In this document: one piece after another, positions 1,472 to 18,061 of the stretch
Position numbering within the stretch: the first letter of the stretch is position 1
Layout: every line of letters begins with the position of its first letter
IMG/VR virus record: IMGVR_UViG_3300025889_001165
Location: 1-20,702 of that record
DNA: 20,702 nt
Origin: a virus
Reading direction: 5' to 3' (one strand)
Program-made: the position numbers and the translations under genes
Notes under the pieces: model-generated
Database searches by the model: none
The model's input: the letters and a program-made list of their open reading frames with translations, nothing else
Told to the model about the DNA's origin: nothing

Positions 1472-2332
1472 ATGGCAAGCACATATTCAAGTAATCTAAA
1501 AATCGAGCTGATTGCTACTGGCGAACAGTCGGGTACTTGGGGCGTAACAACCAATACTAACCTTGGGACTGCGCTTGAAGAAGCGATTGTCGGTTACGGG
1601 AACCCCGATTTTACGTCTGATGCTGACCTCACGATCAGCCTGACAGATGCTAATACTACCCAGGTCGCTCGTAACTTAGTTCTTAATGTTACTTCTTCGG
1701 TATCCTTAACAGCGACCAGAAACCTGATTGTCCCAACAATTGAGAAGCCTTATCTGGTAATCAACGCAACAACGGGTAGCCAAAGCATTACAGTTAAAAC
1801 ATCAGCCGGTACTGGGGTTACGGTTCCCAACGGCGCACGTATGTTCTTATACGTTGATGGCACAAACGTCGTTAACACGGTTACAAACCTGCCTTCTGGT
1901 GCCACGGTTGGCGGTGTGGCAATTAGTACTGCATCAGGCGACGTTGCTGGCCCTGGCTCTTCAACAGATAACGGCTTTACCCGGTTTGATGGGACGACAG
2001 GCAAGATTATCCAAAACTCCACAAGCACGTTGGATGATTCTGGGAACGCCACATTTGCTGGTACGGTGGGTGCGGTTGGTTCTGTCAACGTCTCAGGCAC
2101 AGCGGCTGCTGCGGCAGACCTAAAGCTCTACGAAGATACGGACAATGGAACAAACTACATTGGCCTCCAGGCTCCGGCATCTGTAGCAACCTCAACGACA
2201 TTTGTTCTGCCTGACGCAGACGGATCAACCGGGCAAGTTATTCAAACGGACGGCGCTGGTAATTTATCATTTGTCACCAGCAGTGGTATTTCAACAGGCA
2301 AAGCCATTGCCATGGCAATAGTCTTCGGATAA
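1472..2332 (+). CDS. Tail fibre protein with GEQSGTWG-type N-terminus
   Basis: The protein has 286 residues, with ATG behind AAGGAA at 1461-1466. Residues 1-40 carry the signature YSSNLKIELIATGEQSGTWG followed by TNTNLG, a start I recognise from many fibre-like proteins of aquatic phages. Residues about 60-140 form a beta-rich domain ending in GARMFLYVDGTNVV. Residues 155-185 hold a second common phage fibre motif, SGDVAGPGSSTDN, then RFDGTTGKIIQNS. Residues 215-270 hold LKLYEDTDNGTNYIGLQAP and TGQVIQTDGAGNL. The end, GKAIAMAIVFG, is also typical of this group. It is very likely a structural fibre or fibre-adaptor protein. No C-terminal peptidase or lectin domain is visible. Confidence 0.85.
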   Translation: MASTYSSNLKIELIATGEQSGTWGVTTNTNLGTALEEAIVGYGNPDFTSDADLTISLTDANTTQVARNLVLNVTSSVSLTATRNLIVPTIEKPYLVINATTGSQSITVKTSAGTGVTVPNGARMFLYVDGTNVVNTVTNLPSGATVGGVAISTASGDVAGPGSSTDNGFTRFDGTTGKIIQNSTSTLDDSGNATFAGTVGAVGSVNVSGTAAAAADLKLYEDTDNGTNYIGLQAPASVATSTTFVLPDADGSTGQVIQTDGAGNLSFVTSSGISTGKAIAMAIVFG

Positions 2333-2342
2333 GGAGTAAGAA

Positions 2343-2717
2343 ATGGCAAACCCAAATATCGTTAATGTTGCCACGATTTATGGCAATACCTCATCAACCT
2401 CGTTATCGACGACCAGCGCAACTTCGATTGTGAATAATGCGGCTGGAAGCGGTACGGTCTTAAAAATCAACTCCATTGTCGTTGCCAATGTTGATGGCAC
2501 TTCGGCTGCGGATATTACGATTAATGTTTACAGCCAGGATGATCTGGGTGGAACAGCGTATGCCTTGGCCTCTACGATTGCTGTCCCTGCGGATGCGTCG
2601 CTGATTGTGGTTGATAAAAGCACCTCGTTCTACTTGCTTGAAGACCAGTCGATTGGTGCCACGGCGGGTACGGCTGGTGACTTAGTTGTTACCGCAAGTT
2701 GGGAACAGATTTCGTAA
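2343..2717 (+). CDS. Small beta-rich phage structural protein
   Basis: The protein has 124 residues, with GGAG at 2333-2336 placed six bases before the ATG. It is rich in Thr, Ser, Ala and Val, with no charged clusters, no transmembrane segment and no cysteines. The pattern of strands (ILKINSIVVANVDG near 38-51, ADITINVYSQDD near 55-66, TAYALASTIAVP near 69-80, DLVVTASWEQIS at the end) suggests a single beta-sandwich. Small proteins like this are frequent beside fibre genes in aquatic phages, where they may serve as decoration or fibre-joint proteins. No named family is recognised, so the role is inferred from the neighbouring fibre and adhesin genes. Confidence 0.75.
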   Translation: MANPNIVNVATIYGNTSSTSLSTTSATSIVNNAAGSGTVLKINSIVVANVDGTSAADITINVYSQDDLGGTAYALASTIAVPADASLIVVDKSTSFYLLEDQSIGATAGTAGDLVVTASWEQIS

Positions 2718-2727
2718 GGATTGACTG

Positions 2728-5700
2728 ATGAGCAACCGTTACCCTGGCGGTTTTATTACCGCAGATGAGCCTACTGTAAACACAAGCGAAGCTGACGGCA
2801 TTTGGACGTTGGAGCAGCAGGCTGGGTATCAGGGTCAAGGTGTATGGCCTTTACCTGCTCAACTTATTCAGCGTTCTTTGCGGTTCAACTCTGCTGACTC
2901 TGCTTATCTGTCTCGTACACCACCGAGTGCGGGTAATCGCAAGACTTGGACATGGAGTGGGTGGGTAAAGCGGGGTAGTTTAGGGGGATCTCAACAACTT
3001 TTCCATGCTCAAGTTCCAGCTAATGACGATACCAGTTACTTCTCATTTCGCTTTATGTCTGGCAATGAAATTGGCGTAGTTTTATATTCATATTATCCAT
3101 TAATATCAACGCCAATATACAGGGATGTTTCTGGGTGGTATCACATCATGTGTGTTCTTGATACAACTCAGGCTAGTGCTTCAGACAGATTAAAAATATA
3201 TATAAACGGAGCAGAGGTAACTGCGTGGGGAACTGATAATCGTGCATCTATTGCTCAAAATTCGGAGTTAGCAGTTAACCGAGCATCTCCCCATGCCATA
3301 GGCGCAATCCAGGGGTTTGTTGAGTACTTTAACGGCCTGATGGCAGAAGTCCATTTCGTAGACGGTCAAGCCCTTACCCCATCCAGTTTCGGTTACACAA
3401 ACGCCAGCACAGGTGTATGGACACCTATAGCCTACGCTGGAACATACGGACAGAATGGCTTTTATCTGCCATTCAACGACAACTCAGCGGCTATTAACCT
3501 TGGTTTAAACGGTATTCCTTACACGACAGACCAAGCATGGCCTAATACCACGCTCTTGTTGAACACCAACGGGACCAATGCAGCACAGAACAACACATTC
3601 CTTGACTCCTCCGACAACACCTTTACGGTTACCCGCAACGGCAATACAACCCAAGGCCGGTTCAGCCCGTTCGCTGTTGCAGATGGGGAGTGGAGTAATT
3701 ATTTTGATGGGACAGGTAACCAATTAACGGCAAGCCCATTAACCGATCTTGCGTTAGGTGCAGGAGACTACACCATCGAATTTTGGGCCAATATAAGTGC
3801 TTTTACGACCTACGGTACATTTGTCGCAACATATAATAATGCCACTACCGCTGGTGCATGGTTTTTAAGGATAAACAACACAACACAGCAATGGCAATGG
3901 CAAAATGGCGCAAACGGTTCTGCCCCAAATTTCAAAACATATAACTCATCAACCAATCTGACTGTCGGTCAATGGCATCACCTAGCAGTAGTTAGAAGTA
4001 GTGGCGTTGTCGTCTTGTATCAAGATGGCGTAAATGTTGGCGGTGGTGTCGATGCGGAGACACTTGTTGCACCAAACTTTACAATTGGTCGGGCAGTTAA
4101 CGGTTATGAGCTAAATGGTTACCTGTCCAATTTGCGTATTACCAAAGGAACCGCACTTTATACAACCGCATTTACGCCAAGCACAGAACCACTTACAACC
4201 ACTTCTCAGGGTGCAACATCATCTGAAGTTGAAATACTAACCTGCCAATCCAACCGTTTTGTAGACAACTCTAGCAACACACTTGCCCTTACTGTAGTTG
4301 GTAATCCTAAAGTCACACCCTTCAACCCTTTCACCCCGACAGCCGATTACAGCCCAACGGTCAATGGTGGTAGTGGGTATTTTGATGGGACGACTGATTA
4401 TCTTAGCCTAGCAACAAATGCTCCATTCAGCTTTGGCACAAACGACTTCACAATCGAATGGTGGCAAAACACTACTGACACAGAATACGGAATCATTCAC
4501 ACTGGATCTGGTGGTTGGGGTATTGTTGTTACTGGCGGTACTTTATATTTTCAAAGCGTAATTGATTCGACTAACTTGTTATCTGCAAGTCTTACCAGCT
4601 ACCTCAAAGACCAATGGACACACTTTGCATTAGTTAGAAATAGCGGAACTTTGTATTTGTATATTAATGGCGTTCAGATTACATCTGCGGCTTACTCAAC
4701 TGACATTAGCCTAACGCCAACAACCTCATACATTGGATATTATGTTTCTGCGTCACGTTATTTGTTGGGATGGCTTGCTGGCTTGCGTGTTGTAAATGGG
4801 GCTGCTGTTTATACCTCTGCTTTTACTCCACCTACCGCACCTCCAACAAACGCCGTACCTTCGGGCACCACGGAGCTTCTTCTCAACTTCACCAACGCCG
4901 GGATTGTTGATGCCACGGGCGCTAATGATCTTGAGACGGTGGGCAATGCTCAGGTTTCGACCAGCGTAACCAAATGGGGTTCGTCCATAGCGTTTGACGG
5001 GACTGGGGATGTTTTAACCATGAAGGAAACAGGTGGCATCTTCACATTTGGAACGGGAGATTACACTTACGAGTGCTGGATCTACACGACAACTGGAGCC
5101 ACAACACAAAAAACAATTTTTGGTAGAGCAAATACAGGTAATGTGGCAGTTCCTTACATTTACTTAGTTAATTCTACTGGCGTGTTGTCTTTGTATTACA
5201 GCGCAACAGTTGTTTCTAGCACAACCGCTATTGCTCAAAACACATGGACGCATATCGCAGTCTGTCGGGCAAGCGGAACATCACGATTATTCATCAATGG
5301 GGTTTTAGATGGTAGTGCTGCCGACACAACTAGCTTAATAAGCCCAGACATACTCACAATAGGCGGTAGTGGGGTTGCTGCGGCAAATCCTTTTATTGGC
5401 TACATCGAAGACCTCCGCATCACCAAAGGTTACGCTCGATACACGGGCAACTTCACGGTACCTGATGCACCTTTTGCTTATGACAAGAGCGACATTAATT
5501 ATAAACAGTGGACACCGAACAACTTCTCTGTAACTGCGGGTGCTGATAACGATTCTCTTGTGGACACGCCAACGCCTTATGGAACAGACACAGGTGCGGG
5601 TGGTGAGGTAAGAGGGAATTACTGTACGCTGAATCCTTTAAGACAAGCTACTGGTTCTGGGGCCGCATTAGCTAACGGCAACCTTCAATTTACTTGTATC

Positions 5701-7176
5701 AGCGCACCGACAGGCTCACAGACAACCTTTGCCACTATGGGAGTTTCTTCTGGCAAGTGGTATTTTGAAATGCTCGTGTCTACAACTGGAGGAACATATT
5801 ATCCCGGGGTTGGTGTTAATACAGATTTAGCTCTGGCACCTACCAGTCAGTCGGGTGATACTGCTTCTGGCTATATGTATTTAATAAATGGGCAAAAATA
5901 TACAAACTCTACTCTTTCTGCTTACGGAGCGTCCTTTACTGCTAATGATGTCATTGGTGTTGCTCTGGATATGGATGCAGGAACAATTACTTTTTATAAA
6001 AATGGATCTAGCCAAGGGCAAGCGTTTAGCGGGATTAGTGGAACTGCGGTTCCTTGTGTAGTAGGCTTGTCGAGTGCCGCTGGAACTCTTAACTTCGGAC
6101 AACGCCCCTTCGCCTACACAGCCCCATCAGGTTTCAAAGCACTTGTCACAACGAACCTACCAGAGCCAGCGGTGTTGCAGGGCGATGATTACTTCAACAC
6201 GGTGTTGTATACGGGTAATGGGTCTACGCAATCAATCACGGGTGTAGGGTTTCAGCCTGATTTGGTATGGATCAAGAAGCGTACTACTGGTACAGCCAAC
6301 ACAGCGACTAATGTATTTGATGCTGTTAGAGGTGCTGGAAAACCATTATTTACTTCCTCTACTAGCGCAGAATTGACGGGGCGTTTAACAGCCTTTGGCT
6401 CAGACGGCTTTACTGTTGATTCTGATAATGCGGTTAATGACAATAGCCAACCTCTTGTCGCATGGAACTGGAAAGCCAACGGTGCTGGCTCATCTAACAC
6501 AGACGGAACAATAACCAGCACAGTCTCAGCGAATCAGACTGCGGGTATTAGTATTGTTTCGTATACGGGTACGGGTACAACATCTTCGGTTGGTCATGGG
6601 CTTGGAACGACACCCGCTATGATAATTTGTAAAAGTCGAACATCGGCAGTTGGCTGGCCTACATGGCATCAAGGAATGGGCGGTACTGACAAGGTAATTA
6701 CATTAAATACAACAGGCGCAGTTCAAACCATTTCTGGTTATTGGGGTAGTGCAATTGACTCTACTGTATTTGGTTTAATTTCTGGAGCATACGATAACAA
6801 CAGGAGTGGTGATTCTTATATCGCCTACTGCTTCGCAGAAGTTCCCGGCTTCTCGGCCTTTGGTAGCTACACAGGCAACGGGTCTGCGGATGGGCCGTTT
6901 GTTTACACGGGACTGCGACCTGCTTGGGTTTTATTTAAGCGCACAAACACTACTTCGTCATGGGTAATTTTTGATGCGGTTAGAAATACATACAATGTTG
7001 TAGATAAATACCTATATCCAGATTTAACTTTAAATGAGCAAACTGCTTCAGCCGTAGATTTCACCTCTAATGGCTTTAAATTACGCAGTACAAATGCAGA
7101 ACTTAACGTATCAGGTTCAACCTACATCTACGCCGCCTTCGCAGAAAACCCCTTTAAGAACGCTCTCGCACGATAG
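2728..7176 (+). CDS. Giant LamG-repeat adhesin with SPRY-like and DUF7483-like domains
   Basis: The protein has 1482 residues; the ATG lies eight bases after AGGA. Residues 1-42 are a signature (YPGGFI, GIWTLEQ at 24-30, WPL at 40-42) shared with the gene at 7869. LamG-type jelly-roll modules follow at about 50-260 (with FVDGQALTPSSFG at 210-222), 273-495, 500-710 and 714-925. Typical marks are YFDGTGD, DYTIEFW, W.H.A..R, LYINGV and LRITKG. Residues about 926-1140 resemble a SPRY domain (GKWYFEMLV, IGVALDMDAGTITFYKNG). Residues 1153-1482 hold three units with a YTGxGS...PxxVxxK pattern, a type I know as DUF7483, ending in AAFAENPFKNALAR. LamG and SPRY folds bind glycans or proteins, so a receptor-binding or virion-surface adhesin is likely. 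The N-terminus is probably the virion anchor (inference). Confidence 0.88.
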   Translation: MSNRYPGGFITADEPTVNTSEADGIWTLEQQAGYQGQGVWPLPAQLIQRSLRFNSADSAYLSRTPPSAGNRKTWTWSGWVKRGSLGGSQQLFHAQVPANDDTSYFSFRFMSGNEIGVVLYSYYPLISTPIYRDVSGWYHIMCVLDTTQASASDRLKIYINGAEVTAWGTDNRASIAQNSELAVNRASPHAIGAIQGFVEYFNGLMAEVHFVDGQALTPSSFGYTNASTGVWTPIAYAGTYGQNGFYLPFNDNSAAINLGLNGIPYTTDQAWPNTTLLLNTNGTNAAQNNTFLDSSDNTFTVTRNGNTTQGRFSPFAVADGEWSNYFDGTGNQLTASPLTDLALGAGDYTIEFWANISAFTTYGTFVATYNNATTAGAWFLRINNTTQQWQWQNGANGSAPNFKTYNSSTNLTVGQWHHLAVVRSSGVVVLYQDGVNVGGGVDAETLVAPNFTIGRAVNGYELNGYLSNLRITKGTALYTTAFTPSTEPLTTTSQGATSSEVEILTCQSNRFVDNSSNTLALTVVGNPKVTPFNPFTPTADYSPTVNGGSGYFDGTTDYLSLATNAPFSFGTNDFTIEWWQNTTDTEYGIIHTGSGGWGIVVTGGTLYFQSVIDSTNLLSASLTSYLKDQWTHFALVRNSGTLYLYINGVQITSAAYSTDISLTPTTSYIGYYVSASRYLLGWLAGLRVVNGAAVYTSAFTPPTAPPTNAVPSGTTELLLNFTNAGIVDATGANDLETVGNAQVSTSVTKWGSSIAFDGTGDVLTMKETGGIFTFGTGDYTYECWIYTTTGATTQKTIFGRANTGNVAVPYIYLVNSTGVLSLYYSATVVSSTTAIAQNTWTHIAVCRASGTSRLFINGVLDGSAADTTSLISPDILTIGGSGVAAANPFIGYIEDLRITKGYARYTGNFTVPDAPFAYDKSDINYKQWTPNNFSVTAGADNDSLVDTPTPYGTDTGAGGEVRGNYCTLNPLRQATGSGAALANGNLQFTCISAPTGSQTTFATMGVSSGKWYFEMLVSTTGGTYYPGVGVNTDLALAPTSQSGDTASGYMYLINGQKYTNSTLSAYGASFTANDVIGVALDMDAGTITFYKNGSSQGQAFSGISGTAVPCVVGLSSAAGTLNFGQRPFAYTAPSGFKALVTTNLPEPAVLQGDDYFNTVLYTGNGSTQSITGVGFQPDLVWIKKRTTGTANTATNVFDAVRGAGKPLFTSSTSAELTGRLTAFGSDGFTVDSDNAVNDNSQPLVAWNWKANGAGSSNTDGTITSTVSANQTAGISIVSYTGTGTTSSVGHGLGTTPAMIICKSRTSAVGWPTWHQGMGGTDKVITLNTTGAVQTISGYWGSAIDSTVFGLISGAYDNNRSGDSYIAYCFAEVPGFSAFGSYTGNGSADGPFVYTGLRPAWVLFKRTNTTSSWVIFDAVRNTYNVVDKYLYPDLTLNEQTASAVDFTSNGFKLRSTNAELNVSGSTYIYAAFAENPFKNALAR
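3541..5487 (+). repeat. LamG module array in the first adhesin
   Basis: Three consecutive modules of about 640-680 bases start near 3547, 4230 and 4870. Each begins with a linker of the type ELLTCQSNRFVDNS or TTLLLNTNG and continues into PFSPF...GYFDGTGDYL, then closes with LRITKG...YT..FTP. A fourth, divergent LamG domain lies upstream, about 2880-3510. Linker DNA is more alike between copies than the module interiors. Confidence 0.7.
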
Positions 7177-7185
7177 GAGTAACAA

Positions 7186-7869
7186 ATGTTTGCAATCGTA
7201 CAAAACGGTCAGATAGAAAAGATCATTCAGCCCCACCAGGAATTCACGTTTAACGGCACGACATACAATGCCAAGTGGACGGTGCGGATGTCTTCTGCTG
7301 ACAAAGCCAAGCTCGGTATTACCCCTGTTTACACCCAACCCCGACCGGATGAACGGTTTTACTGGGTCCAGGCCAACGAGCCGAAGCTGGTCAACGGCAT
7401 ACCCACAATCAACCACACCTGCGTTGAGAAGAACCCCGAGGAGTTACGCACTCAATTTGTTGAGCAAGAAAAGGCCGCTGCCAATTCGCAGTTAGCCGCA
7501 ACCGACTGGATGGTGATTCGCAAGGCCGAGCGTGATGTAGCAATCCCCGATGAGGTGGCAGAAGAACGTGCGGAAATAATTGCTGACTGTGCAGCTAAAG
7601 AAGCGGCGATTATGGCAACCACCACGCTTGACGAACTGATTGATGTTGTAGCTCCTGGCGCAACCAAGGCCGAGGATGTAATTGCCTACGCTGAACCCCC
7701 AGCACCGCCTGAGCCTGCACCTGAGCCTGAGATTGTGGTTGAAAGTGCTTCTAGTTCGGACACTTTAACAGTGGACCTTGGTTCGTCCGACACGGTTACT
7801 ACTCTTGATTCTGGCTCTGCTTCTGAGACACTTATCGTTGATTCTGGATCTGCAACTGGAGTTCTGTAA
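7186..7869 (+). CDS. Tail-fibre-assembly (chaperone)-like protein with S/T/D-rich tail
   Basis: The protein has 227 residues, with AGGAG at 7175-7179 overlapping the previous stop. The N-terminal region starts MFAIVQNGQIEKII and runs through a beta-rich part to about residue 80. Residues 103-121 read LAATDWMVIRKAERDVAIP, the conserved block of the phage tail fibre assembly and DUF4376-like family, followed by a helix with charged residues (122-155). These proteins are known or thought to help fold or attach the fibres encoded beside them. Here the gene sits between two giant LamG adhesins, the natural clients. Unusually, residues 169-182 are Pro/Glu-rich and residues 186-227 repeat short SGS.SDTLTVD-like units. 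That extension is not part of the usual chaperone and could be a spacer or a virion-bound strand. The stop overlaps the next start (TAATG). Confidence 0.75.
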   Translation: MFAIVQNGQIEKIIQPHQEFTFNGTTYNAKWTVRMSSADKAKLGITPVYTQPRPDERFYWVQANEPKLVNGIPTINHTCVEKNPEELRTQFVEQEKAAANSQLAATDWMVIRKAERDVAIPDEVAEERAEIIADCAAKEAAIMATTTLDELIDVVAPGATKAEDVIAYAEPPAPPEPAPEPEIVVESASSSDTLTVDLGSSDTVTTLDSGSASETLIVDSGSATGVL

Positions 7870-10800
7870 TGTCTGATCGTTATCCTGGCGGTTTTATTAA
7901 GGCAGTACCTGACGAGCCTACCGAGTACACGGCTCCTGGTATCTGGACGCTTGAACAAGCGGCTGTTTATAAAAAAGCCGGGAAATGGCCTTTAACGTCT
8001 GACCCCTATTTCAATCAGACAACCCTGCTGCTTCATGGTGATGGCAGCGGTCAAGAGCTTTGTTTCGAGGACAACTCCAGCAACGACTTTCCCATCACGG
8101 TCAATGGCGATGCTTACGGCACACCGTTTAGCCCGTACAACACAAGCTGGTCAAACTATTTTGATGGGAGTGGGGATCTGCTTAGTATCCCTTCTGCGGT
8201 GTCTACTTTTCAGGGGTTAGGCGCAAATGATTTTTCTTATGAGTGTTTTGTTTATCCTCTAAAACAAACTAATACTTATGCTCAAGGATTAATTACTTAT
8301 GGACAGGCTGGTAGTACAGGAACTAGCACTTGTGACTTAGTTATCAATGCAAGCGGATATTTTCAAATAGCCTATGCAACTGGAGCGGCACCAACTTTAG
8401 TATCACCCGCACTTGCCCCTATAAACACATGGACACATATTGTTGTTTGTCGTTCAGGATCAACATTGTCTATGTTTGTAAATGGGACAAGAGTATCAAC
8501 CGCATCGACAAGTGCTACGGTTGGTTCTAGCGGTGATGTGGTTTACATAGGCAATCAATGGTATGCAATTGAGGCGACAAGACAGCTTCAAGGTTACATT
8601 TCAAACGCAAGAGTTCTTATAGGCTCCTCTGCTTACGATGCCACACAAACAACTATTACAGTACCTACATCTGCGCTTACCGCAATTACGGACACAGAAC
8701 TCCTCACCTGCCAATCCAACCGATTTGTTGACAACAGCACTAACAACTTTGCTATCACAGTAAACGGCGACCCCGAGGTCAAATCACTCAGCCCCTTTGC
8801 CGAGACTGACACCACAACAGGGTCGGGGTATTTTGATGGGAATGGAGATTACCTTGCTCTGTCAGGCGATCCAGTTGTTTCGACAAACTTTACGATTGAG
8901 TTTTGGTTTTATATGCCATCTTGGGGCGACCGTGTGTTTTTGTCGCAGGGTGGCGGTGCGGCAAATTTTAATACTACGAACGGTGTTGCTTTCCAGATTT
9001 ACTCCACTTCCCCCACGTTTTATGTCCAATGGTCTAACGGCGCTGGTAGTTTTGCTGAGATAAATACGGCAACGTCTGGGATCGCACTAAACGCATGGCA
9101 CCACGTTGCGATTGGCAATAACGGAACCACCACGCGAGTTTGGGTTGATGGCGTATCTGTTGGAACCAATACCGGCACTCCGACATGGGGCTATCCAACT
9201 ACTCGCTCAACGTACATTGGATACATCAGTTATTCGTCTTCGTATGTTGGGCTTGGTTATATGTCGGATGTACGAATAGTGACATCTGATGTTTATGGTG
9301 CAAATAACTCGACTATCTCAGTCCCAACCTCACCAGCAACCTCAGATGCAAACACAGAGCTGCTCACCTGCCAGTACCGTAACGCAGTACGCAATGTCGG
9401 CTTCATCGACTCCAGCCCCAACAAGTTTTTAATCACTCGTAACGGCAACACAACGCAGGGTACATTTAGCCCGTTCTCAAATGCGGATGGGGAGTGGTCT
9501 GGTTATTTTTCTGGTGGCAGTACAAGTTACATTGAAACAGACGCTACGACTTTGTTTGACCAAAATGCCGCCGCAACATTTCAATGCTGGATTTATCCAA
9601 CGCAATTTCTCACATCCACAAGCGCAGTTCGTAGGATGTACATTTTTGTCAAGGGTGTGATTTATGCTGGCTTGTCCATTCATAGCGATGGGACATTAGG
9701 TTGGTATGGCTATCCTGCTGGTTCAATCATTACGGCATCGCCAAGCGGAACAATCGTCACTAACGAATGGCAACATATCGCCATCATTGTTGACCCAACT
9801 AGTAACTACATCAAACTGTATAAAAACGGTGTTGAGGTAGGTACATCTGCCTATTCTGCCTACGGTACAAATGGTGCGGCACTTCGTATTGGAATAGGCG
9901 ATACAGGTCAAAGCGGTACGGACGCTTTTATTGGTTACATGAGCAATGTCAAAGTAAGTGCTTCTGTTGCTTCATTGGATTACGCCTCACCACCTGTCCC
10001 TTCAACAACATCTGGGGCTGGACTTCTTACGCTACAAGCCAATCGTTTTTATGATGCGTCAGGCAACAGAACTGTTACGCCTTATGCGGCAGTCAGCATC
10101 CAACCCTTCTCACCCTTTGCGCCATCTGCGGCTTATTCTGCGAGTGTGAATGGCGGGAGTGCCTACCTAGATGGTACGGGGGATTATCTGACATTTACAA
10201 AAAACACAACAAGTGGCGCATTTACTTGCGAGTGTTGGTTTTATCGTGGGCCAAATGTTGGCGGCGCACATAATGTTTTTGCGGGTAGTAACATTACATC
10301 TGTTAATGCAGACAACATTCAGTTTATTGTGACTAATAGTGGTGGCATTGGTTTAACAATGGTCGGTGTTGTCATAGGTGCTACTGGTACTGCTGTCACT
10401 CAAAATGCGTGGAGTCATTTAGTTTGGGTGCGTGATGCATCCAATAATGTAGCTACTTTTGTAAATGGTAATAGGATTAGCACAGCAACAACTTCAGCGG
10501 CATTAAATGTAATTTCTGTAGGCTGTTATTACGCAAATTACTCCCCAAATGGATATATAACTGATGCTCGAATTGTTAATGAAGCGGTTTACGATCCGAC
10601 TCTAACAACACTTACGGTGCCTACCGCACCATTGACAGCAGTTTCTAATACCTATTTACTGGCAAACTTCACCAACGCTGGCATATTCGACAACACAGCT
10701 AAAAACGATCTTGAAACAGTCGGCAATGCTCAGGTTGATACCTCGGTGGTCAAGTACGGTCAGGGCAGTATGAAGTTTGATGGGACTGGGGATTATTTGG

Positions 10801-11267
10801 TGCGGCCTTATTCCCAAAACATTGACCTTAATAAAGGTGACTTCACAATAGAAGCGTGGGTATACCCAACTGGAACTAAAGCGTTTTCTACGATTGCTTC
10901 AATGTGGGGGGCCGCAGGTTTTAATTCTTGGATTTTTAATGTTAACAATGGAACCCTTGGATTTGCTTGGAGAACTGAAAACCCATCATCAAATTTTTTA
11001 GAAGCTGGATCAGTTTCATTAAATACATGGAGTCATGTTGCCGCAGTTAGATCAGGTAATACTTTTACCATCTATTTAAATGGCGTTTCTCAAGATAGCG
11101 GCACTTCAAGCGACAATTCTGAGACTACACAATTAACCATTGGCGCTTATGAAAATGGCGCTGCTGGTAATTTCCAAGGCTTCATCGACGACCTCCGTAT
11201 CACAAAGGGCGTGGCCCGTTACACAGCAAACTTCACACCTCCGGGTGGGCCTTTCTTGAATAAGTAA
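7869..11267 (+). CDS. Giant LamG-repeat adhesin, five modules
   Basis: The protein has 1132 residues. The ATG overlaps the previous stop by one base, with GGAG at 7859-7862. Residues 1-42 align without gaps with the start of the 2728 gene, with about 24 of 42 identities by eye, including YPGGFI, GIWTLEQ at 24-30 and WPL at 40-42. The rest is five LamG-type modules starting near 50, 275, 495, 715 and 925. Marks are NYFDGSGD, FTIEFWFY, WxHxAxxR or W.HIVV, VNG or LNGV, and ARI/LRITKG near each module end. No SPRY or DUF7483-like end is present; the protein stops just after the last module (FTPPGGPFLNK). It is likely a receptor-binding or surface adhesin mounted at the same kind of virion site as its paralogue. 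Enzymatic activity is neither visible nor excluded. Confidence 0.88.
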   Translation: MSDRYPGGFIKAVPDEPTEYTAPGIWTLEQAAVYKKAGKWPLTSDPYFNQTTLLLHGDGSGQELCFEDNSSNDFPITVNGDAYGTPFSPYNTSWSNYFDGSGDLLSIPSAVSTFQGLGANDFSYECFVYPLKQTNTYAQGLITYGQAGSTGTSTCDLVINASGYFQIAYATGAAPTLVSPALAPINTWTHIVVCRSGSTLSMFVNGTRVSTASTSATVGSSGDVVYIGNQWYAIEATRQLQGYISNARVLIGSSAYDATQTTITVPTSALTAITDTELLTCQSNRFVDNSTNNFAITVNGDPEVKSLSPFAETDTTTGSGYFDGNGDYLALSGDPVVSTNFTIEFWFYMPSWGDRVFLSQGGGAANFNTTNGVAFQIYSTSPTFYVQWSNGAGSFAEINTATSGIALNAWHHVAIGNNGTTTRVWVDGVSVGTNTGTPTWGYPTTRSTYIGYISYSSSYVGLGYMSDVRIVTSDVYGANNSTISVPTSPATSDANTELLTCQYRNAVRNVGFIDSSPNKFLITRNGNTTQGTFSPFSNADGEWSGYFSGGSTSYIETDATTLFDQNAAATFQCWIYPTQFLTSTSAVRRMYIFVKGVIYAGLSIHSDGTLGWYGYPAGSIITASPSGTIVTNEWQHIAIIVDPTSNYIKLYKNGVEVGTSAYSAYGTNGAALRIGIGDTGQSGTDAFIGYMSNVKVSASVASLDYASPPVPSTTSGAGLLTLQANRFYDASGNRTVTPYAAVSIQPFSPFAPSAAYSASVNGGSAYLDGTGDYLTFTKNTTSGAFTCECWFYRGPNVGGAHNVFAGSNITSVNADNIQFIVTNSGGIGLTMVGVVIGATGTAVTQNAWSHLVWVRDASNNVATFVNGNRISTATTSAALNVISVGCYYANYSPNGYITDARIVNEAVYDPTLTTLTVPTAPLTAVSNTYLLANFTNAGIFDNTAKNDLETVGNAQVDTSVVKYGQGSMKFDGTGDYLVRPYSQNIDLNKGDFTIEAWVYPTGTKAFSTIASMWGAAGFNSWIFNVNNGTLGFAWRTENPSSNFLEAGSVSLNTWSHVAAVRSGNTFTIYLNGVSQDSGTSSDNSETTQLTIGAYENGAAGNFQGFIDDLRITKGVARYTANFTPPGGPFLNK
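8008..11250 (+). repeat. Five-unit LamG module array in the second adhesin
   Basis: Modules begin near 8020, 8695, 9355, 10015 and 10645, a spacing of 630-675 bases. The second linker here and one linker in the first adhesin (near 4240) share the 17-base block ACCTGCCAATCCAACCG. The last module linker shares CAACTTCACCAACGC... and GGCAATGCTCAGGTT with the last LamG linker of the first adhesin (near 4885-4955). Confidence 0.75.
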
Positions 11268-11272
11268 GGTGA

Positions 11273-15346: not shown

Positions 15347-18061
15347 ATGAACATGCGTGGATTACCTGCTATTCAATACTACGTGACCGGTGGTCAGATT
15401 AATGACATCTACGAAAGCCTATTTGAGAGGGGAGCAGACCCTGAAGGCTTGGCTTATTACGAAAGTCTTTTAAAAGATGCTTCTGTAGCAGATGCGATTG
15501 CAATTATTGGTGGTGGAGCTAGAGGAGAAGATGTACAAGAAGTTACGCCCCAAGAGATTGCCACTAAATCAATTGTTGCCGCTTATGAAGATGCACTAGG
15601 CCGATCCGGACAAGATATTGATGTTGGTGGGCTTCAGTTTTATCAAGATCAAGTGCTAAATCAAGGGTTAGATGCAACCCTCATTGATAATATTTTGGCT
15701 TCTTCTCCCGAAGCACAGGCTCGATTTGGGGAAGATGTTGCTAAAAAGCAGGAAGAGGCGGCAGCATTTTCTAACCTACCTGGGCAAGACTTTCCGATTA
15801 ACCCTGATACGGGGCTTCCGTTTGTTGGGGGTGTAGACCCTAATGCTCCAACTACTCCAGTTACGCCCAGACAGCCTGTACCCACTAGCAGTGAAGGTGC
15901 CCCTGTTGTTGAAACCCCAGCGGCAAGGACACTACAAGGGCTACCACGGTACATACTTCAGCAGCCCAGTGCCTTACGTTTTGCTCCTTTTCGTCGTGGG
16001 TCTACTCAATTACAAGGACCAACCAGCTTAATGGCAGGTGAAGCCACTTCTCAAACTTCTGCATTTGAACAGCAGCCAGCTATGTTTACACGGGGTGCAA
16101 CTGTAAACGACTTGTACCGACAGCTTTTAAATCGTGGCCCCGATCCAGAGGGGTACAACTATTGGCTTGATGAATTTGGTCCTACGGTAGAACCTAATGA
16201 AGTAAGCAGGTTTATTGGCGGAATTGAAAATCCAACAGAACGAGCCGCAGCCGAACTTGCTGCTCAAGACTTTTTAAGTCGTTTACCGCAGTCAACTTTG
16301 CCACAAGATTTTGTGCTACAAACAGGTGCTTATGGTGCGCCGACACCGACTTCAATGACAATACAGCCACCCGCACCTGTCGCTCCATTGAAAGGTACAA
16401 CTCCTCCGCCCGGAACGGTTGACACTACGCCAATAGATGATGGCGGCGGTGCTAAAGAAGGCGGCATGATTAGGATGGCTGAAGGTGGCGAGGCTATGGC
16501 TAAGCTTTCTCCCACAGAGCTTGGCTCGGAGTTTGATCGTTCTGCATTTGTAGATGAAGAAGGCCGTTTAGTCGGTGGTTATTCCACACCAGTTCGTGAT
16601 GAGTATGGCGTTATCACAGGCTACAACTACCGCCCTTATGAGCGCGACGTTGTGTTTGGCGAAACACTGCGTGGTAAAGAAGCAGGTATACAAATACCTG
16701 ACGCAGACCAAGAGCGAATTCTTAGAGATTTAATGATTATGCGTGGGCAAACAGGCGTTGGCCCATCAAGAGGCGGTCTTGCTGGTATAGAAGTCAGAGG
16801 TCCAGTCCAACGCAATCGGCCTTTGTATTATCCATTTGAGTCTAATTATGCAAAGGGTGGTGATGTTGCTGCAACTGCACAAGATTTAGCTTCCCGTGGT
16901 CGTGGCGGCGACACGATGCTGGTTCACATGGCTCCCCATGAGGTTGCTGGACTAAACGCACTTGCCCGTGCGCAGGGGGATGAACTAACTATTAACCCTG
17001 AAACAGGGATGCCTGAAGCTTTAAAGCTTGGCAAATTGTTTAAACAAATTGCACCATTTATTCCATTTATTCCCGGTGTTGGTCAGTTTTTAGCTCCGTT
17101 TTTACCGTCTGGCTTAGCCGCATGGGGTGCTGCAAACCCGTTACTTGCTAAAGCTGTTACTTCTGGCGTAATCGGCGGCTTTACCGGACCAAAAGGCGGA
17201 TTTGATTTACAGCGTGGTTTGATGCAGGGTATTACTGCTTATGGCTTGGGTAGCTTGCAACAGAATCTTGCTGGCGCTCCAACACCCGGAGGCCCTGCTA
17301 ATGTAACTAGCGTATCCCCAGAAATGGGTGGTGTACCAACTCCTGAAACAATGGTTACTCCTAGTGGCGATGTTTCTCTTTCGTCTTCTTATTCTGGCCC
17401 TACTACTGATTTTATGGGTGGTCCTACAGATTTAAGCTCGCCAACTTTTGACTCTAGCTCCATGCGTCCAGTGTCGCAAAATCTTCCTTATGGGACTAAA
17501 GGAATACCAGGGCTTGACCCTAGTGTGGCTCCTCCGCCAGCACCCAGCGGTTTTGGTGAACCAATGAAAACCCCAACCGCTTTACTTACTACTGTAGGCG
17601 GTGTTGGAATGGTCTCTGACTACGATAAAGCTGTATCTGCACAATTAGCTGCTCAAAGAGAAAAAGACGAAGAGGAAGATATTTACCGCAGACTATTTGA
17701 ACGAACCTTAGGTCGAGTACGCACTGCCAAACAGGGCGGTTTAATGAAGCTAGCCGGTGGTGGCATGACTTATATGGAAGCTGGTGGAACGACCGGATCT
17801 ACTGGTGAACCCCGTGATGTAACTGGAACGGGGGATGGCATGAGCGATAGCGTCCCTGCTAGTATAGAGGGTGTGCAGGAGGCTCGATTAGCCGACGGTG
17901 AATTTGTAATCCCAGCCGATGTTGTTGCTGATATTGGCAATGGGTCAAGCGATGCAGGGTCCAAGAAGCTCTACGACATGATGGATCGTATCCGCATGGC
18001 TCGGCACGGCACAAAAGAACAACCCCCAGAAATCAAGGCCGAGCGCCTGATGCCTGCATAA
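15347..18061 (+). CDS. DUF4214-containing large virion protein, candidate ejection protein
   Basis: The protein has 904 residues; AGGA at 15336-15339 favours this ATG over the one at 15353. DUF4214-type repeats lie at about 15-58 (INDIYESLFERGADPEGLAYY), 74-127 (AYEDALGRSG...FYQDQVL) and 248-305 (VNDLYRQLLNRGPDPEGYNYW). A low-complexity Pro/Gly stretch follows at about 340-385, with GGMIRMAEGG. A block with GGDTMLVHMAPHEVAGLNALA and a hydrophobic Gly/Pro region occupies about 520-640 (FIPFIPGVGQFLAPFLP). The C-terminal 110 residues carry GGLMKLAGGGMTYMEAGG, GDGMSDSVPASIEGVQ and LADGEFVIPADVV, a block I recognise from many aquatic phage and prophage proteins. Taken with the next two genes, I infer an internal or ejected protein that may enter the host envelope. 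A tail-surface role cannot be ruled out because DUF4214 also occurs in adhesins. Confidence 0.75.
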   Translation: MNMRGLPAIQYYVTGGQINDIYESLFERGADPEGLAYYESLLKDASVADAIAIIGGGARGEDVQEVTPQEIATKSIVAAYEDALGRSGQDIDVGGLQFYQDQVLNQGLDATLIDNILASSPEAQARFGEDVAKKQEEAAAFSNLPGQDFPINPDTGLPFVGGVDPNAPTTPVTPRQPVPTSSEGAPVVETPAARTLQGLPRYILQQPSALRFAPFRRGSTQLQGPTSLMAGEATSQTSAFEQQPAMFTRGATVNDLYRQLLNRGPDPEGYNYWLDEFGPTVEPNEVSRFIGGIENPTERAAAELAAQDFLSRLPQSTLPQDFVLQTGAYGAPTPTSMTIQPPAPVAPLKGTTPPPGTVDTTPIDDGGGAKEGGMIRMAEGGEAMAKLSPTELGSEFDRSAFVDEEGRLVGGYSTPVRDEYGVITGYNYRPYERDVVFGETLRGKEAGIQIPDADQERILRDLMIMRGQTGVGPSRGGLAGIEVRGPVQRNRPLYYPFESNYAKGGDVAATAQDLASRGRGGDTMLVHMAPHEVAGLNALARAQGDELTINPETGMPEALKLGKLFKQIAPFIPFIPGVGQFLAPFLPSGLAAWGAANPLLAKAVTSGVIGGFTGPKGGFDLQRGLMQGITAYGLGSLQQNLAGAPTPGGPANVTSVSPEMGGVPTPETMVTPSGDVSLSSSYSGPTTDFMGGPTDLSSPTFDSSSMRPVSQNLPYGTKGIPGLDPSVAPPPAPSGFGEPMKTPTALLTTVGGVGMVSDYDKAVSAQLAAQREKDEEEDIYRRLFERTLGRVRTAKQGGLMKLAGGGMTYMEAGGTTGSTGEPRDVTGTGDGMSDSVPASIEGVQEARLADGEFVIPADVVADIGNGSSDAGSKKLYDMMDRIRMARHGTKEQPPEIKAERLMPA

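Follow-up and report, generated by a model that had tools for sequence, protein, structure and literature searches.

T-even phages reportedly change the specificity of their adhesins by recombination between conserved motifs, as Tetart and colleagues are said to have found in 1998. In the T4-like adhesin gp38, glycine-rich conserved motifs alternate with hypervariable segments (PMC6851490). Recent exchange of domain-sized fragments has been described in phage host-interaction proteins (Smug et al., 2023; PMC10684548), in a main text that makes no mention of laminin, lectin, concanavalin, linkers, or breakpoints and contains no ordered connector classes. In marine phage genomes, it is the genes for host recognition, some of them lectin-like, that vary, according to the portion of Mizuno et al. 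(2014; PMC3909814) considered here, which covers variation of genes and of C-termini; the exchange of core cassettes between conserved connectors is the level that we describe. We analyzed a 20.7 kb piece of the genome of an uncultured tailed phage (the window, meaning the whole stretch of DNA analyzed), in which two genes, g5 and g7, encode fibre-like proteins. As in gp38, conserved motifs in these proteins alternate with hypervariable and putatively receptor-facing segments. Unlike gp38, which has short loops and a polyglycine sandwich, the exchangeable units are whole LamG domains of about 200 aa, the arrays mostly hold 3-6 units, and the connectors fall into ordered positional classes. We rejected membership of the gp38 family for g5 and g7, which are LamG beta-sandwiches without polyglycine linkers and would work like such an adhesin without being one. 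The g5 protein also resembles the LamG-SPRY-DUF7483 fibre of MEP301, CRP-811, and pelagiphages, with which it has A1, SPRY, and DUF7483 in common, and differs from the MEP301 and CRP-811 fibre by an extra triad of modules. We propose, with a probability of roughly 87%, that g5 and g7 are strings of lectin-type domains joined by ordered connectors, and that their cores are exchanged as cassettes by homologous recombination.

Laminin_G_3 profiles match both proteins above the curated cut-off (E = 1.6e-62 for g5 and 2.6e-82 for g7; Table 1). The canonical module consists of a linker of ~40-55 codons, a beta-sandwich core that begins at the motif FDGxGDYL, and a short tail, typically LRITKGxAxYTxxFTPP. 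An AlphaFold (AF2) model of B2-B3 (mean pLDDT 78.9; interdomain packing unreliable) places the B2 beta-sandwich at residues 45-197, i.e. with its start at the FDG seam, and predicts the linker to be mostly non-core with one short hairpin. Foldseek searches with this model returned laminin LG4-5 and neurexin LNS domains as the best matches (E about 1e-12 to 1e-10). In profile scans, the genes downstream of g5 and g7 include several for virion proteins and, as g10, one for an M15 peptidase; in phage DSL-LC04, a complete genome record from a Chinese lake, a LamG gene is likewise followed by genes for an M15 peptidase and a virion protein. We interpret both proteins as virion components of a fibre or adhesin-like type, in which lectin-type (LamG/ConA) domains follow one another in a string, and the LamG cores probably bind sugars or receptors. 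The matching N-termini of the two proteins (7869-8000 in g7; Table 1) suggest two fibres with one attachment point. A near-nucleotide search of phage records with the window gave no match, a scan of bacterial genomes for the host gave just two weak matches to Bacteroidota MAGs, and NCBIfam profiles added nothing useful (a TafC match lay far under its cut-off).

Table 1. Features of g5 and g7 in the window (positions are those of the window).
Feature	Position	Strand	Description	Basis
g5	2728..7176	+	Fibre-like, 1482 aa: N-terminal anchor, LamG A1, triad A2-A4, SPRY, DUF7483	ORF; Pfam Laminin_G_3 x4, SPRY, DUF7483
g5 N-terminal segment	2728..2859	+	Common to g7	66% aa identity over 44 aa
A1	2872..3546	+	LamG module, type without cassette linker	
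F-M-L triad (A2-A4)	3520..5500 (ends approximate)	+	Insertion in g5 relative to MEP301 gp16, CRP-811_32, L103, L106	Protein alignment; nt offset to L103
A2 linker	3547..3702	+	Class F; GC 0.526	Linker class; GC
A2 core	3703..4221	+	Core cassette and tail; GC 0.445	GC
A3 linker	4222..4380	+	Class M	Linker class; GC
A3 core	4381..4866	+	Core cassette and tail	GC
A4 linker	4867..4992	+	Class L; GC 0.548	Linker class; GC
A4 core	4993..5481	+	Core cassette and tail	GC
SPRY of g5	5755..6105	+		Pfam PF00622, E 1.6e-17
DUF7483 of g5	6184..7152	+		Pfam PF24299, E 5e-123
g7	7869..11267	+	Fibre-like, 1132 aa: N-terminal anchor, five LamG modules, order F-M-F-M-L	ORF; Pfam; linker classes
B1 linker	8019..8159	+	Class F (variant)	Linker class; GC
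B1 core	8160..8690	+	Core cassette and tail	GC
B2 linker	8691..8831	+	Class M	Linker class; GC
B2 core	8832..9350	+	Core cassette	nt matches in arrays of other phages
B3 linker	9351..9506	+	Class F	Linker class; GC
B3 core	9507..10013	+	Core cassette	GC
B4 linker	10014..10166	+	Class M	Linker class; GC
B4 core	10167..10646	+	Core cassette	GC
B5 linker	10647..10775	+	Class L	75% identical to A4 linker over 72 nt; GC
B5 core	10776..11264	+	Core cassette, protein end	GC

The original prediction described an array of modules with conserved linkers repeating every 630-680 nt. The array is there, with a spacing of 615-675 nt, and so are the shared linker words that had been named (ACCTGCCAATCCAACCG at 4240 and 8706; GGCAATGCTCAGGTT at 4942 and 10722). 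The description of these linkers as long near-identical blocks is apt between phages; in the window, the exact words measure just 15-17 nt, and eight 15-mers are repeated (null mean 1.4, null maximum 20). What had been overlooked is that the linkers form three ordered classes and that a whole triad was inserted in g5.

We derived a profile from the modules of the window and gathered a first set of 490 full modules from 159 phage loci, using g5, g7, the neighbour genes, and the DNA pattern of one linker in the searches. The hold-out, obtained by a fresh scan with the L-linker pattern and scored with frozen models, comprised 270 modules in 96 further loci. Nearly all loci are IMG/VR metagenome contigs, and counts of module pairs are not independent. 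When modules were classed by linker sequence alone, the linkers split into three classes that follow the order First-Middle-Last (F, M, L). M linkers had partly guided the choice of the first set and L linkers that of the hold-out; the presence of these classes is therefore not independent evidence, unlike their order and the other classes. The opening module was F in 105 out of 112 arrays and the closing module was L in 107 out of 113. The transitions between neighbours were FM (135), ML (117), MF (18), MM (7), and LF (5), with FF, LL, and FL absent. Complete genes read FML in 60 instances, FMFML in 9 (including g7), and FMLFML in 5, and a further 6 (including g5) had another LamG followed by FML; the hold-out contained FML order in 61 genes. 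The complete record of DSL-LC04 reads FMLFML and has a GC content at third codon positions (GC3) of 0.56 in linkers versus 0.27 in cores. Linkers of the same class reach 100% identity in different phages, whereas unlike-class linkers never exceed 0.69, even within one gene, where their mean identity is 46% and the maximum 0.66 across all loci. No account of phage LamG arrays with ordered linker classes turned up in the literature that we searched, mostly papers available without subscription.

Cores shared between modules retained their class in 141 out of 147 classed pairs, and the six exceptions are all F-M pairs. These six appear to be a single core type, which sits at the M position in B2 of g7 and in the L088 group and at the F position in L097; its shared block starts at column 44, beside the FDG seam that is common to all classes. 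We consider the chances even that the three connector classes act as a positional address system, which would route LamG cores to the first, middle, or last position of an array; if so, many phage lineages would draw interchangeable binding cassettes from a common pool. Alternatively, the structure of the protein could demand this order of classes.

Cores and linkers have different histories. Among 398 linker pairs with more than 85% nucleotide identity, 271 carried unrelated cores (both halves below 60%, against a background of about 40%). These pairs come from 140 modules in 72 loci, and none were obtained when codons were shuffled within column and amino acid. The hold-out gave the same picture (unrelated cores beside >85% identical linkers in 245 out of 308 pairs). 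The cores themselves are inherited whole: in 144 pairs with a first core half more than 85% alike, the second half was shared in 139 and fell below 60% in none, and in the hold-out both halves went together in 65 out of 67. We took as breakpoints the internal ends of alignments that reached 350 nt and 80% identity, and merged the resulting 35 by hand into 25 distinct ones by joining near-identical genes and related pairs. As in gp38-type adhesins, the breakpoints lie in conserved motifs, with 22 out of 25 in the linker zone (expected 36%, p-value about 1e-7) and the remaining three within cores (columns 75, 181, and 186). Identity at the breaks drops from about 0.8-1.0 to 0.2-0.6 inside 50-100 nt. 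For instance, L094 and L096 are 99% identical over 1374 nt and soon unrelated where the third linker starts, L096 and L098 share a 96% block that runs from the middle of linker 1 up to where linker 2 ends and has diverged flanks, and L265 is a mosaic whose start is 99.2% identical to L171 and whose end is 99.5% identical to L124. Module content and order are thus not conserved among related phages: the neighbours of a core are either the same or unrelated, and breakpoints cluster in the linkers. These findings support the idea that LamG cores are transferred from phage to phage as complete cassettes, with conserved connectors as the sites of exchange. The proposed in-frame swapping of modules by homologous recombination is supported as well, in a sharper form that includes the ordered linker classes.

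Exchanges can also be traced in the window's own genes. Two cultured phages, MEP301 and CRP-811, and contig L103 lack the F-M-L triad, and their A1 leads directly into the SPRY region. Because this empty form is common, the triad was probably gained in the window lineage and not lost elsewhere. In L097 and in the group formed by L087/L088/L090/L095, modules share 75-79% nucleotide identity with the B2 core; the similarity begins at the FDG seam (8826), and the neighbouring cores are unrelated (0.37-0.40). Since the best shared core reaches just 75-79%, the window exchanges are old and the recent events are those in relatives, and no recent exchange was seen in any window module. By their downstream genes, the nearest relatives are L009 and L010 (window 2343-11270 against 1521-8361 and 3521-8154, respectively), which share g8, g10, and g11 (48-90% aa) and have the LamG genes replaced. 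The stretch between g3 and g8 encodes 2OG-Fe(II) oxygenases in L009 and a carbamoyltransferase in L010, without any LamG match, so these phages cannot be used to compare modules; the different gene content indicates that the entire region has been exchanged too. Outside the LamG modules, part of DUF7483 (window 6463-6696, L103 11657-11890) is 96.6% identical over 234 nt, compared with 73-86% in the other pieces of the gene that could be aligned, a sign of more recent exchange. In addition, the protein end at which contig L143 starts is 99% identical (82 aa) to window 17813-18061, so a near-identical phage exists.

Two explanations would produce such patterns without exchange between phages. 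In the ordinary divergence of tandem domains, linkers would be kept by the needs of the protein while cores diverge fast. Linkers are indeed more conserved than cores at the protein level, and the FDGxGDYL motif in the linker is a standard LamG motif. However, synonymous sites are shared as well (codon identity 0.81 in linkers more than 85% identical versus 0.43 in random pairs, in addition to the 0 versus 271 pairs of the shuffled null). The next neighbour of a shared core was moreover the same in 68 cases and unrelated in 23, and the previous one the same in 68 and unrelated in 19, with no intermediate cases, and identity falls off a cliff in the linker. We therefore regard ordinary divergence as extremely improbable. 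The other explanation is that metagenome assemblers joined unrelated contigs at conserved linkers. Nearly all loci and almost all mosaics are metagenome contigs (IMG/VR), and exact runs as long as 143-191 nt lie next to a few of the breaks (L154/L176, L171/L265, L124/L265, and L215/L220). Exact runs at most breaks are nevertheless under about 90 nt, many of them below 40 nt, and the same arrays were reassembled from several samples (L087/L088/L089/L090/L095 and L161/L182/L201). The near-perfect class order in more than 100 arrays also speaks against joins at any linker, which would scramble it, although joins between linkers of the same class would not. Both the order and the GC3 step are present in the complete DSL-LC04 record, and the g5 triad insertion was judged against cultured isolates. 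Chimeric assembly is thus a very unlikely source of the mosaics.

We propose that exchange of LamG cassettes would take place between co-infecting phages, where homologous recombination would pair linkers of the same class and swap, in frame, a single core or several consecutive ones. Same-class linkers are alike between phages and unlike-class linkers differ within a gene, so like would pair with like, and the class differences within a gene may protect the array by disfavouring module loss through internal recombination. The outcome would be that the probable receptor-contacting cores are replaced and the architecture of the array is retained, and host range may change as a consequence. Exchange by homologous recombination is strongly supported, and this would be its biochemical route. 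Recombination between same-class linkers explains the pattern, so no special enzyme is needed; the DSL-LC04 annotation names no recombinase, and profile scans of the genes in the 20.7 kb window named no recombinase or reverse transcriptase. Rad52-like recombinases of phages perform relaxed homologous recombination and create mosaics through short diverged homology, and phage recombination tolerates divergence of such degree (PMC3945230). That system concerns genome mosaics of E. coli phages with Rad52-like recombinases, whereas the window phage has no identified recombinase gene.

The sequences suggest that ordered, swappable cassettes are a natural plug-in system by which a phage may change its attachment target. 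The swapping of modules in phage adhesins had already been outlined; in the present arrays, the cassette and its borders, the class order, and the synonymous-site signature are readable from sequence, and they were repeated in the hold-out. This yields candidate binding cores that are exchangeable and can be counted as a library, and it makes testable how receptor specificity may change without breaking a multi-domain fibre. Furthermore, the ordered connectors suggest why arrays of similar tandem domains escape collapse through internal recombination.

The linkers also differ from the cores in base composition, as predicted. The GC contents given for three segments were reproduced (56% for 4861-4960, 30% for 3061-3120, and 31.7% for 10921-10980), but the second of these segments, which had been taken for an AT-rich interior, belongs to A1, a different kind of module without a cassette linker. 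All eight canonical modules have GC-richer linkers (mean 0.510 versus 0.438 in cores, Wilcoxon p-value=0.008). The contrast in the window is synonymous and located at third codon positions: GC3 is 0.585 in linkers and 0.319 in interiors, and the linker-interior difference (0.247) exceeds 8 sd of a null in which each gene had its own synonymous codons shuffled (null sd 0.030). Beyond the window, linker GC3 exceeded interior GC3 in 105 out of 109 contigs with a measured background (amino acids controlled) and in 78 out of 78 hold-out contigs. The profile is a square wave, with about +0.2 at columns 0-38, a drop at 42-48, about -0.07 through the core, conserved motifs included, and a rise from 186.

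The better codons in linkers may reflect long residence as opposed to itinerant cores, codon selection, or GC-biased conversion. We rejected translational accuracy at conserved sites as the cause of the step, since conserved core motifs (HIAVVR and LYVNG) are low in GC3 and linkers show no correlation with conservation. A simple scheme of native linkers and foreign AT-rich cores is incomplete because linkers exceed the GC3 of the contig background. Residence time, compatible with cassette exchange, has in our view a one in two chance of being the cause: resident linkers would gain good codons and itinerant cores would keep poor, AT-leaning ones, or, in a variant, slow codons in cores would help folding. 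It accounts for the steeper slope of GC3 on contig background in linkers (0.82 versus 0.42 in cores), for the match between the edges of the square wave (about columns 40-47 and 186) and the places where right-hand and left-hand breakpoints fall, and for a GC3 inside linkers that is independent of amino-acid conservation (r = -0.05). It fits less well with a linker GC3 that surpasses the background instead of matching it and with a core GC3 that is still correlated between modules of the same gene (0.51). GC-biased gene conversion at recombination-prone linkers is equally compatible with exchange and would explain why linker GC3 lies over the contig background in 100 out of 109 contigs and why C-ending and G-ending codons are both up in linkers (NNY and NNR families). 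We nonetheless consider it unlikely: GGG, GGA, CGA, and CGG are down in linkers, the frequency of poor G/R/I/L codons (0.189 in linkers, 0.267 in other ORFs, and 0.354 in cores) resembles codon quality, and the excess is gone in several AT-rich genomes (L101, L117, L128, and L212). Finally, GC3 also peaks at the SPRY-DUF7483 junction (6148-6222) and within DUF7483 (6808-6942), which are possibly further cassette borders.
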